This document shows positions 12,976 through 20,658 of a DNA stretch of 23,387 nucleotides, one piece after another. Under the pieces are notes generated by a model, which saw only the letters and a program-made list of their open reading frames with translations, searched no databases and was not told the origin of the DNA. The stretch's first letter is position 1; every line of letters begins with the position of its first letter. Source of the DNA: a virus; the IMG/VR virus record IMGVR_UViG_3300030099_001784, positions 1-23,387 of that record. The stretch is one strand, 5' to 3'. Both the position numbers and the translations under genes were made by a program.

Positions 12976-13203
12976 ATGGAAAAAGCAAATAAATTAGAAT
13001 TATTAGAAACCCTTCATACAGTTCTCATACAAGAATTGTTAGACAAGGTAAAAAGTGGAGCAGCAAAACCTGGTGATCTTAACGTAGCAAGACAACTGTT
13101 GAAGGATAATGGTATTGAATGTATTCCAACAGAGAAGAGTCCTATGGAAGATCTTATGTCCAACCTTCCAGACCTTGATGTAATACCTGCTTTAGAAAGA
13201 TAG
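12976..13203 (+). CDS. terS: terminase small subunit, T7 gp18-like
   Basis: A 75-aa protein (T7 gp18 is 89 aa). It has helical ELLDKVKSGAAKPGDLNVARQ followed by LKDNGIECIPT and an acidic/hydrophobic end (DLMSNLPDLD), the pattern of cyanopodovirus and T7-like small terminases. TerS binds the concatemer and loads the large subunit for packaging. It sits two genes before terL, as expected, but a methyltransferase-like gene is inserted between the two subunits. That gene's TTG start follows its stop by one base. No Shine-Dalgarno is visible. Confidence 0.75.
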   Translation: MEKANKLELLETLHTVLIQELLDKVKSGAAKPGDLNVARQLLKDNGIECIPTEKSPMEDLMSNLPDLDVIPALER

Positions 13204-13204
13204 T

Positions 13205-13801
13205 TTGAAAGTTCTTGTAGCCTGTGAATACTCTGGCAGAGTAAGAGATGCCTTTATATCACAGGGGCATGATGCCATAAGTTGTGATCTACTGCCTACA
13301 GAGGTGGAAGGACCACACTATCAGGGAGATGTCAGAGACATCCTCTATGATGGTTTTGATTTGATGATTGCACACCCCAGTTGTCAGCACCTTGCAGTAT
13401 CAGGAGCAGCACACTTCTGGAGAAAAAAGAAAGAACAGAAAGAATCATTAGACTTTGTAAGACTGCTGATGAACGCACCGATACAGAGATGGTGTATAGA
13501 AAACCCTGTAAGTGTTATCAGTTCTGCCATAAGACAACCAGATCAGACAATACAGCCTTGGATGTTTGGTCATGGAGAGACAAAGGCAACATGCCTGTGG
13601 CTTAAGAACCTACCAAAACTAAGACCTACAGATATTGTTGAGGGTAGAGAACCAAGAGTGCATATGATGCCACCAGGACCTGACAGGTGGAAAGACAGAT
13701 CTCGTACCTATGATGGAATAGCACTGGCAATGAGCCAGCAATGGACAGAAGACAATCCTATTCAACTAAGCTTTCTTGAACAATATGCAACCGCTTCCTG
13801 A
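13205..13801 (+). CDS. cytosine-methyltransferase-like protein between the terminase genes
   Basis: A 198-aa protein with a TTG start. It begins MKVLVACEYSGRVRDAF, a Rossmann-type start like SAM-binding motif I. It has D28 in ISCDLLP, then DLMIAHPSCQHL (residues 52-63), where C60 falls where C5-cytosine methyltransferases have the catalytic Pro-Cys, and IENPVSVI with E99-N100, like motif VI (ENV). The usual proline before the cysteine is replaced by serine (HPSC), and the C-terminal target-recognition and motif IX-X regions of full enzymes are missing, so activity is uncertain. Phage proteins of this type are often annotated as DNA methylase. In this slot T7 carries lysis genes 18.5/18.7. The stop overlaps the start of terL by 17 bases. 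Confidence 0.65.
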   Translation: MKVLVACEYSGRVRDAFISQGHDAISCDLLPTEVEGPHYQGDVRDILYDGFDLMIAHPSCQHLAVSGAAHFWRKKKEQKESLDFVRLLMNAPIQRWCIENPVSVISSAIRQPDQTIQPWMFGHGETKATCLWLKNLPKLRPTDIVEGREPRVHMMPPGPDRWKDRSRTYDGIALAMSQQWTEDNPIQLSFLEQYATAS

Positions 13802-15506
13802 GAAACTACAAGACTTTAGATACTTTCTAATCATAACGTGGCGTCATCTTAACCTACCTGACCCCACACCAGTTCAATTAGACATAGCTGAGTATTTACA
13901 GCATGGACCTCGTAGAAAGATCATACAGGCGTTTAGAGGCGTAGGTAAAAGTTGGATAACAAGTACTTATGTCGTATGGAAACTACGGATGAATCCACAA
14001 CTAAAGTTCCTTGTAGTCTCTGCAAGTAAAGACAGAGCAGATAATTTCTCTACTTTCACCATGCGTCTTATCAATGAGATGCCAATATTAGCTCCACTGC
14101 GTCCAGAAGACACTCAGAGGAACTCAAAGATAAGTTTTGATGTTGGGCCTGCATCTGCTGATCATGCCCCTTCAGTAAAGTCTCAGGGTGTCTTAGGACA
14201 GATGGCTGGTAGTAGAGCAGATGAAGTGATTGCTGATGATGTGGAAGTACCAAATAACAGCTTTACTCAACCAATGAGAGACAAGTTAAGTGAAGCTGTA
14301 AAAGAATTTGATGCCATACTGAAACCTAACGGTAAAATTACCTTTCTTGGTACTCCACAAACAGAACAATCTCTTTACCTAACCCTTGAAGAGCGTGGAT
14401 ATACAACACGCATATGGACTGCACGTTATCCAGAACTTAAAAACAATTATGGAGATAGATTAGCTCCTAAATTAGCTCAGAGGCTATCAGAAGAGCTTGT
14501 AAAGCCTAAAGATCCTGTTGACCCTGATAGATTCTCATCAATAGACCTCATGGAACGTGAAGCCTCCTACGGACGTTCTGGGTTCTCTTTACAGTTCATG
14601 CTAGATACTTCTCTATCAGACCAGGATAGATACCCTCTAAAGCTATCAGATCTAATCATCAGCAGTGTCAACCCAGATCATGCACCAGAAAAGGTGATTT
14701 GGTCATCCTCTCCCGAATACGTCATCAAAGAATTACCCTGTGTAGGTTTTAATGGAGACCATTTCTACAGACCTGCACAGCAATTCGGTGACTGGATTGA
14801 ATATACAGGCTCTGTTATGTTCATTGACCCCTCTGGTAAAGGACGTGACGCAACAGGATACGCTGTAGTCAAAATGCTTAACGGTAACCTTTACGTTCCT
14901 GATGCTGGTGGACTAAACGGTGGTTATTCAGACGCTGTATTAACAACACTATCCAAAATAGCCAAGACAAATAAGGTAAACACCATACTCGTTGAGTCAA
15001 ATATGGGTGGCGGTATGTTCGCTGAACTCCTAAAACCTTTCCTTCTCCGCTATCACCCCTGTGAAGTACAAGACGTACGCAATACAAAGACTAAAGAATT
15101 ACGCATCATAGACACCTTAGAACCAGTAATGAACTCTCACAGGCTTATATTCGACCGCAAGGTAGTGGAAAAAGACTATAGATCTAACCCTAATGAAGCA
15201 CCAGAACGTAAATTAAAACTTCAACTCTTCTATCAGATGTCTCGCATAACAAAACACAGAGGTTCTCTTGTACACGATGACATACTTGATGCTCTATCAG
15301 GTGCAGTAGCCTACTGGACTGAGTATATGAACCAAGATGAAGACAGAAACATCAAATCTCGTAAAGATGAATTACTAAGAGTTCACTTAGATAACTGGGG
15401 GTCTTACCTAAACAACACCGTCACCCAAACAGCCCTCGGAATGTCCCCCACTCAGATAAGTAATTCTAATGGTTCCTCTGATGGATTCATTAATAATTCT
15501 TATTAG
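13785..15506 (+). CDS. terL: terminase large subunit, T7 gp19-like
   Basis: A 573-aa protein from the ATG at 13785. A TTG at 13776 would add three residues. The similarity to T7 gp19 is recognisable by eye: AFRGVGKSW with K55-S56 (ATP-binding Walker A), VVSASKDRAD, FDVGPASADHAPSVKSQG, GSRADEVIADDVEVP with D151-D152 (Walker B), and FLGTPQTE (coupling motif). The C-terminal RNase H-like nuclease has D348 in FIDPSGKGRD, E404 in VESNMGGG and D498 in HDDILDAL. It is the ATP-driven packaging motor and also cuts concatemers at the genome ends. Codons here end in C more often than in the structural genes upstream. It is the last late gene; a repeat-rich non-coding region follows directly. Confidence 0.95.
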   Translation: MQPLPEKLQDFRYFLIITWRHLNLPDPTPVQLDIAEYLQHGPRRKIIQAFRGVGKSWITSTYVVWKLRMNPQLKFLVVSASKDRADNFSTFTMRLINEMPILAPLRPEDTQRNSKISFDVGPASADHAPSVKSQGVLGQMAGSRADEVIADDVEVPNNSFTQPMRDKLSEAVKEFDAILKPNGKITFLGTPQTEQSLYLTLEERGYTTRIWTARYPELKNNYGDRLAPKLAQRLSEELVKPKDPVDPDRFSSIDLMEREASYGRSGFSLQFMLDTSLSDQDRYPLKLSDLIISSVNPDHAPEKVIWSSSPEYVIKELPCVGFNGDHFYRPAQQFGDWIEYTGSVMFIDPSGKGRDATGYAVVKMLNGNLYVPDAGGLNGGYSDAVLTTLSKIAKTNKVNTILVESNMGGGMFAELLKPFLLRYHPCEVQDVRNTKTKELRIIDTLEPVMNSHRLIFDRKVVEKDYRSNPNEAPERKLKLQLFYQMSRITKHRGSLVHDDILDALSGAVAYWTEYMNQDEDRNIKSRKDELLRVHLDNWGSYLNNTVTQTALGMSPTQISNSNGSSDGFINNSY

Positions 15507-15575
15507 GTCGCATCTGTAGATAAATAACACCCTTTCTATTATGAAAGGGGGGGACTATAGGGGGGGATAGCGACC
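15506..15575. repeat. nested palindromes directly after terL
   Basis: Outer arms GGTCGC (15506-15511) and GCGACC (15570-15575) enclose an inner perfect hairpin CCCTTTC-TATTAT-GAAAGGG (15530-15549) and a G-rich segment around CTATAG with seven G on either side. No U-run follows, so it is not a standard terminator. It could be a transcription pause or a packaging-cut structure. Confidence 0.6.
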
Positions 15576-15749
15576 ATAGATCCCATAAGTAATTAAAGAC
15601 CTAAAATAAGTAGTTAATAGATACTAAATAAGCAGTGAACAAGTAGAAAATAAGACTACATTAGCAGTAAATAAGCAGATGATAGTTGTTAATAGTTGAT
15701 ACACAAGACTAACCGCCTACAGCAACCTAAAATAAAATATATAAGATCC

Positions 15750-15835
15750 CTATAAGACATCTCTGGGCAGTCTATAGGGATCTTATAGATACCTATAGGA
15801 CATCTCTGGGCAGTCTATAGGGATCTTATAGATAC
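15750..15835. repeat. 43-bp tandem repeat with T7-promoter-like cores
   Basis: Two copies (15750-15792 and 15793-15835) differ at one base (CTATAA versus CTATAG near the start). Each contains CATCTCTGGGCAG and then TCTATAGGGATCTTATAG. The first copy is also palindromic with flanking sequence: AGATCCCTATA (15744-15754) against TATAGGGATCT. CTATAGGG is the initiation core of the T7 promoter, so each unit might hold a phage polymerase promoter. That is unproven. Confidence 0.85.
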
Positions 15836-15935
15836 CTATAGATAACTCTTATAGATAACTATAGATACCCATAGATATCTTTTAGTTATCCTATAGATAT
15901 CCTATAGTTACCCTTAGGTATCTTTAAGTAACTCT
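15835..15935. repeat. array of about 10-11-base TATAGATA(C/T) units
   Basis: Units such as CCTATAGATAAC, ATAGATACCC, ATAGATATC and CCTATAGTTACC follow one another. TAG steps fall at 15839, 15852, 15862, 15872, 15883, 15894, 15905 and 15915, spacings of 13, 10, 10, 11, 11, 11 and 10 bases. This is close to one DNA turn per unit, degrading towards TTAAGTAAC near 15930. T7 has arrays of a CCTAAAG heptamer beside its terminal repeat (SRL/SRR), a possible counterpart. Confidence 0.75.
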
Positions 15936-16079
15936 TAAATCAGGTCTAAAAACTTTTTGGAACAAAAATTTGAAGGGTTTACGCATATATACAAAAACAA
16001 AATTTACCCCTATGCATAGACTTTTTTCTGTAGATTTTGTAGTTAGTCTTTGTAAATAATTCATATGACTAGGTTTTTA

Positions 16080-16096
16080 CTGGACTTATAATCCAG
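16080..16096 (+). other. hairpin resembling a tRNA anticodon arm
   Basis: CTGGA-CTTATAA-TCCAG is a 5-bp stem with a 7-base loop that fits the C-U-NNN-A-A anticodon loop pattern. Bases 16083-16096 match the attP segment at 20732-20745 in 13 of 14 positions. No D-arm, T-arm or acceptor stem is seen around it, so it is not a tRNA gene. Confidence 0.45.
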
Positions 16097-16186
16097 TTTG
16101 TAGGTATTTAGAGTCTAATTGTTACAAAGTGTTAAGATTTTCTTATTTTATTTTATCGATGCCCACCACTTAGTAATACTGATAGT

Positions 16187-16230
16187 CAGTACTAGCTAAC
16201 TAATAGATACCTAATAGATAGCAGTACTAG
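16187..16230. repeat. small repeat cluster before the first early gene
   Basis: CAGTACTAG occurs at 16187 and 16222 and flanks two tandem 11-base units, TAATAGATACC and TAATAGATAGC (16201-16222). The units resemble the TATAGATAC elements 300 bases upstream. Confidence 0.7.
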
Positions 16231-16251
16231 TCCTAGAACCTTTGACAATTT

Positions 16252-19773: not shown

Positions 19774-20658
19774 ATGCCCAGAGGAATCCCGCAGTCGAGA
19801 TGCCCACGTTTATCTCAGGCTGTAAGGACTGTATATAACAGAAGAAAGCGTGGTACGCCTGATGCTGACTATTACATCATGCGTATGAACCATAACATTA
19901 AAGCTATAGGTGATTTACCTGTCAGTCAGATAACAGAACCGCTAGTTAATGTTTTGATTGATTATCATAGGGAAACCTTTGATAACAGTAATAAAACTAT
20001 CAATAAGAAAGTATCTGCTCTAAAGATTACATTGGAGGAGATGGCTTCTGATGGTTATATATCTATGATTCAGTTTCCCAAGAGACTAAAGGAAACTAAG
20101 GGTCGAACACATTACTTTACTCAGTGTATGGAAGAGGATTTATTAAATACTTTCATGCATTGGGGTCTTTATGAACACCATGACTTTGTTAAATGCCTGA
20201 TGGATACAGGTGCAAGACTGAGTGAGTTGTTCGGATTAGAGAAAAGGTATGTAGATTTTAATCTTAATCAGATAACTTTTCCTGATCGTAAATGTGATAA
20301 CCCTGTAAGTGTACCGATGACTGATGAGGTACAGAAGATACTAAGACCTTATTATTTAAAAGCTAGAGCTACTGATAAGTTGTTTCCTTATAGCAGCTAT
20401 TGGCTTAGAACTATTTGGAATAGGGTGAGAGATCATCTTGGCTATGCAGATAAGGATTGGTATGTACCGCACCTATGTAGACATACTTGTGCGACTAGGT
20501 TAGTACAAAGAGGTGTTCCTTTAGGTGTTGTAAAGGATTGGATGGGTCATGAATGTATCCAGGCAACAATGATATATGCTCATCACGCACCAAAGCAGTT
20601 ACATGAAGCTGTAAAGGTGCTAAATAGTAAAGAATCCAGTACATCCATAGCGTCTTAG
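19774..20658 (+). CDS. int: tyrosine-family phage integrase
   Basis: A 294-aa protein with AAAGGAG 7 bases before the ATG. Residues about 30-100 form the SAM-like core-binding domain (VSQITEPLVNVLIDYHRE). The catalytic domain has R148 in DTGARLSEL, H233-x-x-R236 in HLCRHTCATRL, H259 in WMGHE and the nucleophile Y268 in MIYAHHA, so all five visible catalytic positions are intact. It should join attP to a tRNA-Leu gene of the host; a tRNA-like att segment lies 72 bases downstream. The order int-att-RNA polymerase is that known from cyanophage P-SSP7. The N-terminus is basic (RCPRLSQAVRTVYNRRKRG) and may contact arm sites. Confidence 0.93.
   Translation: MPRGIPQSRCPRLSQAVRTVYNRRKRGTPDADYYIMRMNHNIKAIGDLPVSQITEPLVNVLIDYHRETFDNSNKTINKKVSALKITLEEMASDGYISMIQFPKRLKETKGRTHYFTQCMEEDLLNTFMHWGLYEHHDFVKCLMDTGARLSELFGLEKRYVDFNLNQITFPDRKCDNPVSVPMTDEVQKILRPYYLKARATDKLFPYSSYWLRTIWNRVRDHLGYADKDWYVPHLCRHTCATRLVQRGVPLGVVKDWMGHECIQATMIYAHHAPKQLHEAVKVLNSKESSTSIAS

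Follow-up and report, generated by a model that had tools for sequence, protein, structure and literature searches.

A phased array of TAG-centred repeats beside the predicted left genome end of an uncultured T7-like marine podovirus

We identified a phased array of TATAG(A/T)TA units at positions 15818-15935 (+ strand) of a 23,387-base stretch of viral DNA, referred to below as the window. The array is real and goes beyond what chance would produce. Judging from sequence homology, it lies directly to the left of the predicted left genome end, the place which in T7 is occupied by the SRR repeats. Our best reading is that it is an SRR-like array, lineage-specific and dispensable, which probably constitutes a protein-binding platform.

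Nine TAG trinucleotides were found in 15821-15935 (at 15829, 15839, 15852, 15862, 15872, 15883, 15894, 15905 and 15915), following each other at distances of 10, 13, 10, 10, 11, 11, 11 and 10. This confirmed the presence of at least eight TAG-centred units spaced by 10-13 bases, which had been claimed in a preliminary description of this DNA. The extent given there (15835-15935) was upheld as regards the array itself, but not its start, because a TAG at 15818, inside the arm of a hairpin, is already in step and extends the chain to 10 units. The Fourier peak of 15821-15935 (period 10.75, power 5.29) was reached by 0 of 1000 dinucleotide shuffles and the lag-10 identity of 0.505 by 0 of 2000 shuffles; thus autocorrelation and comparison with shuffled sequence, both proposed earlier as checks, came out in favour of the array. 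Tandem Repeats Finder delimited it as an 11-bp array of 10 copies with 71% matches (15815-15922). When all 23,387 bases were scanned (110-nt segments, step 10), the strongest signal in the 9.8-12 bp range started at 15741 (power 6.66, period 10.8), in a segment that also includes a 43-bp hairpin duplication.

Genomic setting of the array

The window encodes a terminase small subunit of the T7 gp18 type (TerS, DNA_Packaging_2; 12976-13203, + strand; PF11123, E 3.9e-18) and a large subunit of the T7 gp19 type (TerL; 13776-15506, + strand; PF22530, E 1.8e-36; phrog_38, E 1.8e-109). Further along come a gap of 745 bases, the early genes, a gene for an integrase (19774-20658) and a 797-aa ORF, which was taken for an RNA polymerase on account of its place and by analogy with phage P-SCSP2. 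The ORF between TerS and TerL (13205-13801) matched a DNA methyltransferase PHROG (E 1.1e-69). In T7-type genomes TerL is located at the right end and the early genes at the left end, and the 745-base gap therefore corresponds to the predicted concatemer joint. Judged by this gene order, the window spans the joint of an uncultured, MPP-C-like, T7-like marine podovirus. Among named phages, the closest to it is P-SCSP2 of Prochlorococcus (TerL 77% identical), assigned in passages of PMC9860041 to the MPP-C clade, which is without a DNA polymerase gene. DNA_pol_A was found in none of six long relatives, including L018 (same ORF at both contig ends) and the array-less L059.

The location beside a genome end, put forward in the preliminary description, was borne out, since the array has TerL to its left and the early genes to its right, with a conserved left-end element immediately following it. 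The order is fixed among relatives: TerL, poly-G element, hairpin, array, conserved element, terminal-repeat region and early genes. Where 400 nt or more were available past TerL (73 TerL loci), the poly-G element was present in 73, the hairpin loop in 72 and, searched by a fixed pattern, the left-end element in 68. The poly-G element GGGGGGGACTATAGGGGGGG (15547-15566, + strand), which directly follows TerL in all 73 and sits in the phiOR place, is a possible phage promoter or G-quadruplex. Its loop differs among relatives (ACTATA, ATTATA, ATAAA), and some contigs end inside the poly-G.

The array in related phages

Relatives were collected from IMG/VR as 80 loci identified by TerL and 69 stretches identified by pattern, which, after some short or repeated ones had been discarded, were combined into 100 contig rows. 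With the window, these gave 101 entries, 82 of which contained both the hairpin and the left-end element (the other 19 were left out) and represented 65 distinct junctions. An array of 3-12 TAG was present at 46 junctions, whereas 19 had 0 or 1 TAG; the expectation that close relatives carry the array in the same place therefore holds for the former and fails for the latter, the array being absent from one sister clade.

Among the 243 TAG-TAG steps, 128 were of 11, 39 of 10, 27 of 12 and 9 of 13, and 23 more were of 21-23 or 32. The phasing z exceeded 3 in all 31 distinct array-bearing loci, compared with 1 of 31 for the neighbouring stretch between poly-G and hairpin; this test was confined to entries with poly-G, hairpin and element and without a repeated array. 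Median z was 0.92 upstream of the hairpin and, in the terminal-repeat region, 1.63 in array-bearing and 3.23 in array-less loci, in the last of which GGACA repeats occur.

The unit logo, built from units in contact with neither the hairpin arm nor the left-end element, reads C-T-T-A-TAG-W-T-A-N-C, that is, TATAGWTANC every ~11 bp. The family period is closer to 11.0 than to 10.5 (mean Rayleigh R 0.86 versus 0.68; 31 arrays with at least five TAG), and in the window the last unit is 69 degrees apart from the first at 10.5 bp per turn. The proposal that all units face one side of the helix can thus be retained for neighbouring units, but not for long arrays, which drift off one face. In DNA looping in vivo, the apparent helical repeat is close to 11.0.

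Gaps between close relatives correspond approximately to whole units (9-12 or 23 nt). In 34 of the 46 arrays, hand-picked into six groups, 13 of 99 TAG columns were variable versus 67 of 283 other columns (Fisher p 0.031, a weak test, as the rows are related). The whole-unit gaps together with this modest conservation suggest turnover under some constraint. The hairpin-to-left-end distances of the 46 array-bearing junctions fit a 10.55-bp step (22 distinct lengths; a fit reached by 0 of 3000 random length sets). This ladder was rejected as proof of selection for a helix face, because the classes differ (A 10.6, B 10.7, C 11.25) and the gain and loss of whole units would yield it unaided.

A three-unit pattern matched 33 viral stretches; 19 were inspected, and 15 of them were without the hairpin and element context. 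TATAGWTANC arrays were seen in other phages (L281, L283, L285 and L287), that of L285 (12717-12745) lying right behind a T7-like TerL, without this context.

Hairpin and genome ends

The conserved hairpin upstream of the array (copy 1, 15741-15786, loop TCTGGGCAG) has a fold of -23.3 kcal/mol (z -4.6). In 50 hairpins the mean fold was -21.1 kcal/mol for native arms, -20.0 after same-class arm swaps and -15.4 after between-class swaps, a loss of 5.7 kcal/mol relative to native in the last case. A second copy of 43 bp (15787-15829) folds more weakly (z -1.2). The duplication (15744-15829) was present in the window and in L001, the junction of which is identical to that of the window. T7 has a hairpin at the corresponding place, and a hairpin in terminal-repeat-bearing DNA during T7 infection is described in excerpts of PMC4281155. 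By eye, no helical step was apparent in the distances from hairpin to left end in T7 (170), T3 (164), phiYeO3-12 (190) and K11 (123); in gh-1 such a hairpin was not found within range.

The 25-30 bases to the left of the left end are alike in T7, T3 (for example AATTTACCACAAAAATCTGAATGGGTA), phiYeO3-12, K11, gh-1, Syn5 and P-SSP7, the genome ends of the last having been measured (PMC3350473, in part). The left-end sequences of SP6 and phiKMV look unlike this element. Its match in the window, TTTTTGGAACAAAAATTTGAAGGGTTTA (15954-15981, + strand), leads to a predicted left end at about 15982, which 47 bases would separate from the array on its left. When a model built from the seven phages was run over 165 kb, the best match per record was the window-type element in 11 of 12 records (the sole miss was L018), with single E values of 0.05 to 7; because the records are related, these are not twelve independent results. 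In a second set, the model matched CRP-125 (L293, 1023-1053; E 2.7e-5) and Bylgja (L295, 190-224; E 2.9e-4) downstream of TerL and, weakly, P-SCSP2 (0.042); the match in HTVC119P was unconvincing (1.3), and P-SCSP1a, HTVC011P and L285 gave none. This element, common to many T7-like phages, may allow the prediction of ends in uncultured T7-like genomes.

A direct terminal repeat of 177 bp is predicted at 15982-16158, its left end by homology. The right end, at TATCG (16158), is tentative and derives from contig edges: of 16 edges (contig or stored-stretch) in the region that starts at the TerL stop and extends ~700 nt beyond the element, four (L003, L007, L028 and L079, that of L007 being inside its contig) fell at TTATTTTATTTTATCG within ~5 nt. 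Another four were in or at the poly-G, and no pile-up was seen at the predicted left end. Placing the right end by homology failed, as A(T/C)CTGTT, which occurs just right of the terminal repeat in T7, T3, phiYeO3-12, K11, Syn5 and P-SSP7, is absent from 15507-16251.

Inside the predicted repeat, CTGGACTTATAATCCAG (16080-16096) resembles a tRNA anticodon arm and is a possible attP for the integrase encoded at 19774-20658. A pattern scan of genome contigs for the anticodon-arm-like 20-mer gave no match, and some relatives contain another module, with GGACA repeats, in its place. A second, short TAG array with an 11-bp step, CTAATAGATAC, occupies the SRL place (16200-16221, + strand). On this side, TAG steps of 11 made up 50 of 129 in 29 array-bearing loci and 0 of 28 in 13 array-less ones (median Fourier z 0.08).

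Possible role of the array

We give roughly even chances to the view that the array represents this lineage's own SRR-type short repeats in the left-end processing region, a putative protein platform for marking or processing the left end. A protein would occupy neighbouring ~11-bp units along almost one face of the helix and, once bound, would assist in marking or processing the left end, for which a hairpin, a nick or cut and the filling-in of the terminal repeat are envisaged. Additional units would provide more binding sites, none being strictly required. This view is supported by the real phasing, seen in every locus tested, the fixed place between the upstream hairpin and the left-end element, the matches of the left-end model, the TAG constraint, and the short repeats of T7 (13 bp) and SP6 (11-12 bp). 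Array-less junctions and phages, the weak p value of the constraint, the period of 11.0, similar units away from TerL and the unsettled right end count against it.

The main rival is neutral repeat turnover, in which an 11-bp unit grows and shrinks by replication slippage beside the hairpin and is in step only by descent. Such a process, which we consider possible though rather doubtful, would be in keeping with the copy number of 3-12 (down to none in a clade) and the whole-unit gaps between close relatives, and slippage is evident in the 43-bp hairpin duplication of the window. It agrees less well with the lower variability of the TAG columns, with phasing in 31 of 31 array-bearing loci, and with the fact that the units have diverged, yet a spacing of 10-12 has been kept in 194 of 243 TAG-TAG steps.

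The other alternatives concern the identity of the binder. The preliminary description had suggested the TerS-like protein, and a packaging recognition site read by a TerS ring would suit an array adjoining the packaging end of a phage with a T7 gp18-type TerS; the TerS ring of PaP3 carries nine HTH motifs around it (PMC7672466, in part). However, in the loci with an identified TerS, this protein was 79-100% identical to that of the window, without tracking with the array, and L015 (10 units) and L028 (8 units) differ from L068 and L044 (none) by a few residues. The near identity of TerS with and without the array argues against a dedicated reader, and we regard this explanation as improbable. 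Candidate binders would then be a component of the machinery for replication or transcription, or else a DNA-binding protein of the host. We attach similarly little weight to an operator or origin, that is, an iteron-like array for a phage or host initiator in phages without their own DNA polymerase. The absence of DNA_pol_A from 6 of 6 long relatives would fit, as would the similar units of L287, beside a T7-like RNAP gene, and of L283, in the vicinity of a gene resembling a primase-helicase (both genes named by eye), but the array-less L059 is likewise without DNA_pol_A, and the array would be at the right end of linear virion DNA, not ahead of the early genes.

A variant of the favoured protein platform, to which we would assign a low probability, is that an iteron-like platform phased at ~11 bp evolved in this DNA-polymerase-less T7-like lineage and recruits a host protein at the genome end. 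Such a protein would couple end processing to host factors for replication or DNA bending, with the number of units tuning the strength. The natural series of 0 to 12 units in marine phages, with the other parts kept, provides a ready set for probing repeat function.

Comparison with known systems

To our knowledge, the T7-type short repeats SRR and SRL have no known or settled role. No description of an array such as that of the window was recognised in the literature searched, in which the known T7 packaging papers did not come up, and the available portions of PMC8779105 and PMC10438801 make no mention of short repeats. P-SCSP2 (OM416780; PMC9860041, in part) shares with the window a DNA-polymerase-less clade, an integrase, the left-end element and a hairpin, but has no phased TAG array, and none was found in Syn5 or P-SSP7. 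Since these three phages and 19 of 65 junctions are without it, the array is not needed for T7-type ends.

SP6 (NC_004831) has TTAG-containing units, many of them at 11-12 bp, which also adjoin the terminal repeat; unlike the array of the window, these repeats (unit CCTTAGT) are on its other (SRL) side. The likeness to the T7 heptamers suggested in the preliminary description did not extend to unit and spacing, as the SRL unit of T7 is CCTAAAG at 13 bp (V01146) and that of the window TATAGWTANC at 10-11. Moreover, unlike SRR and SRL, the array is missing from a whole sister clade of this lineage. What it has in common with the T7 repeats is its arrangement: a row of short imperfect repeats that adjoins the terminal repeat and has a hairpin on one side and the left-end element on the other.
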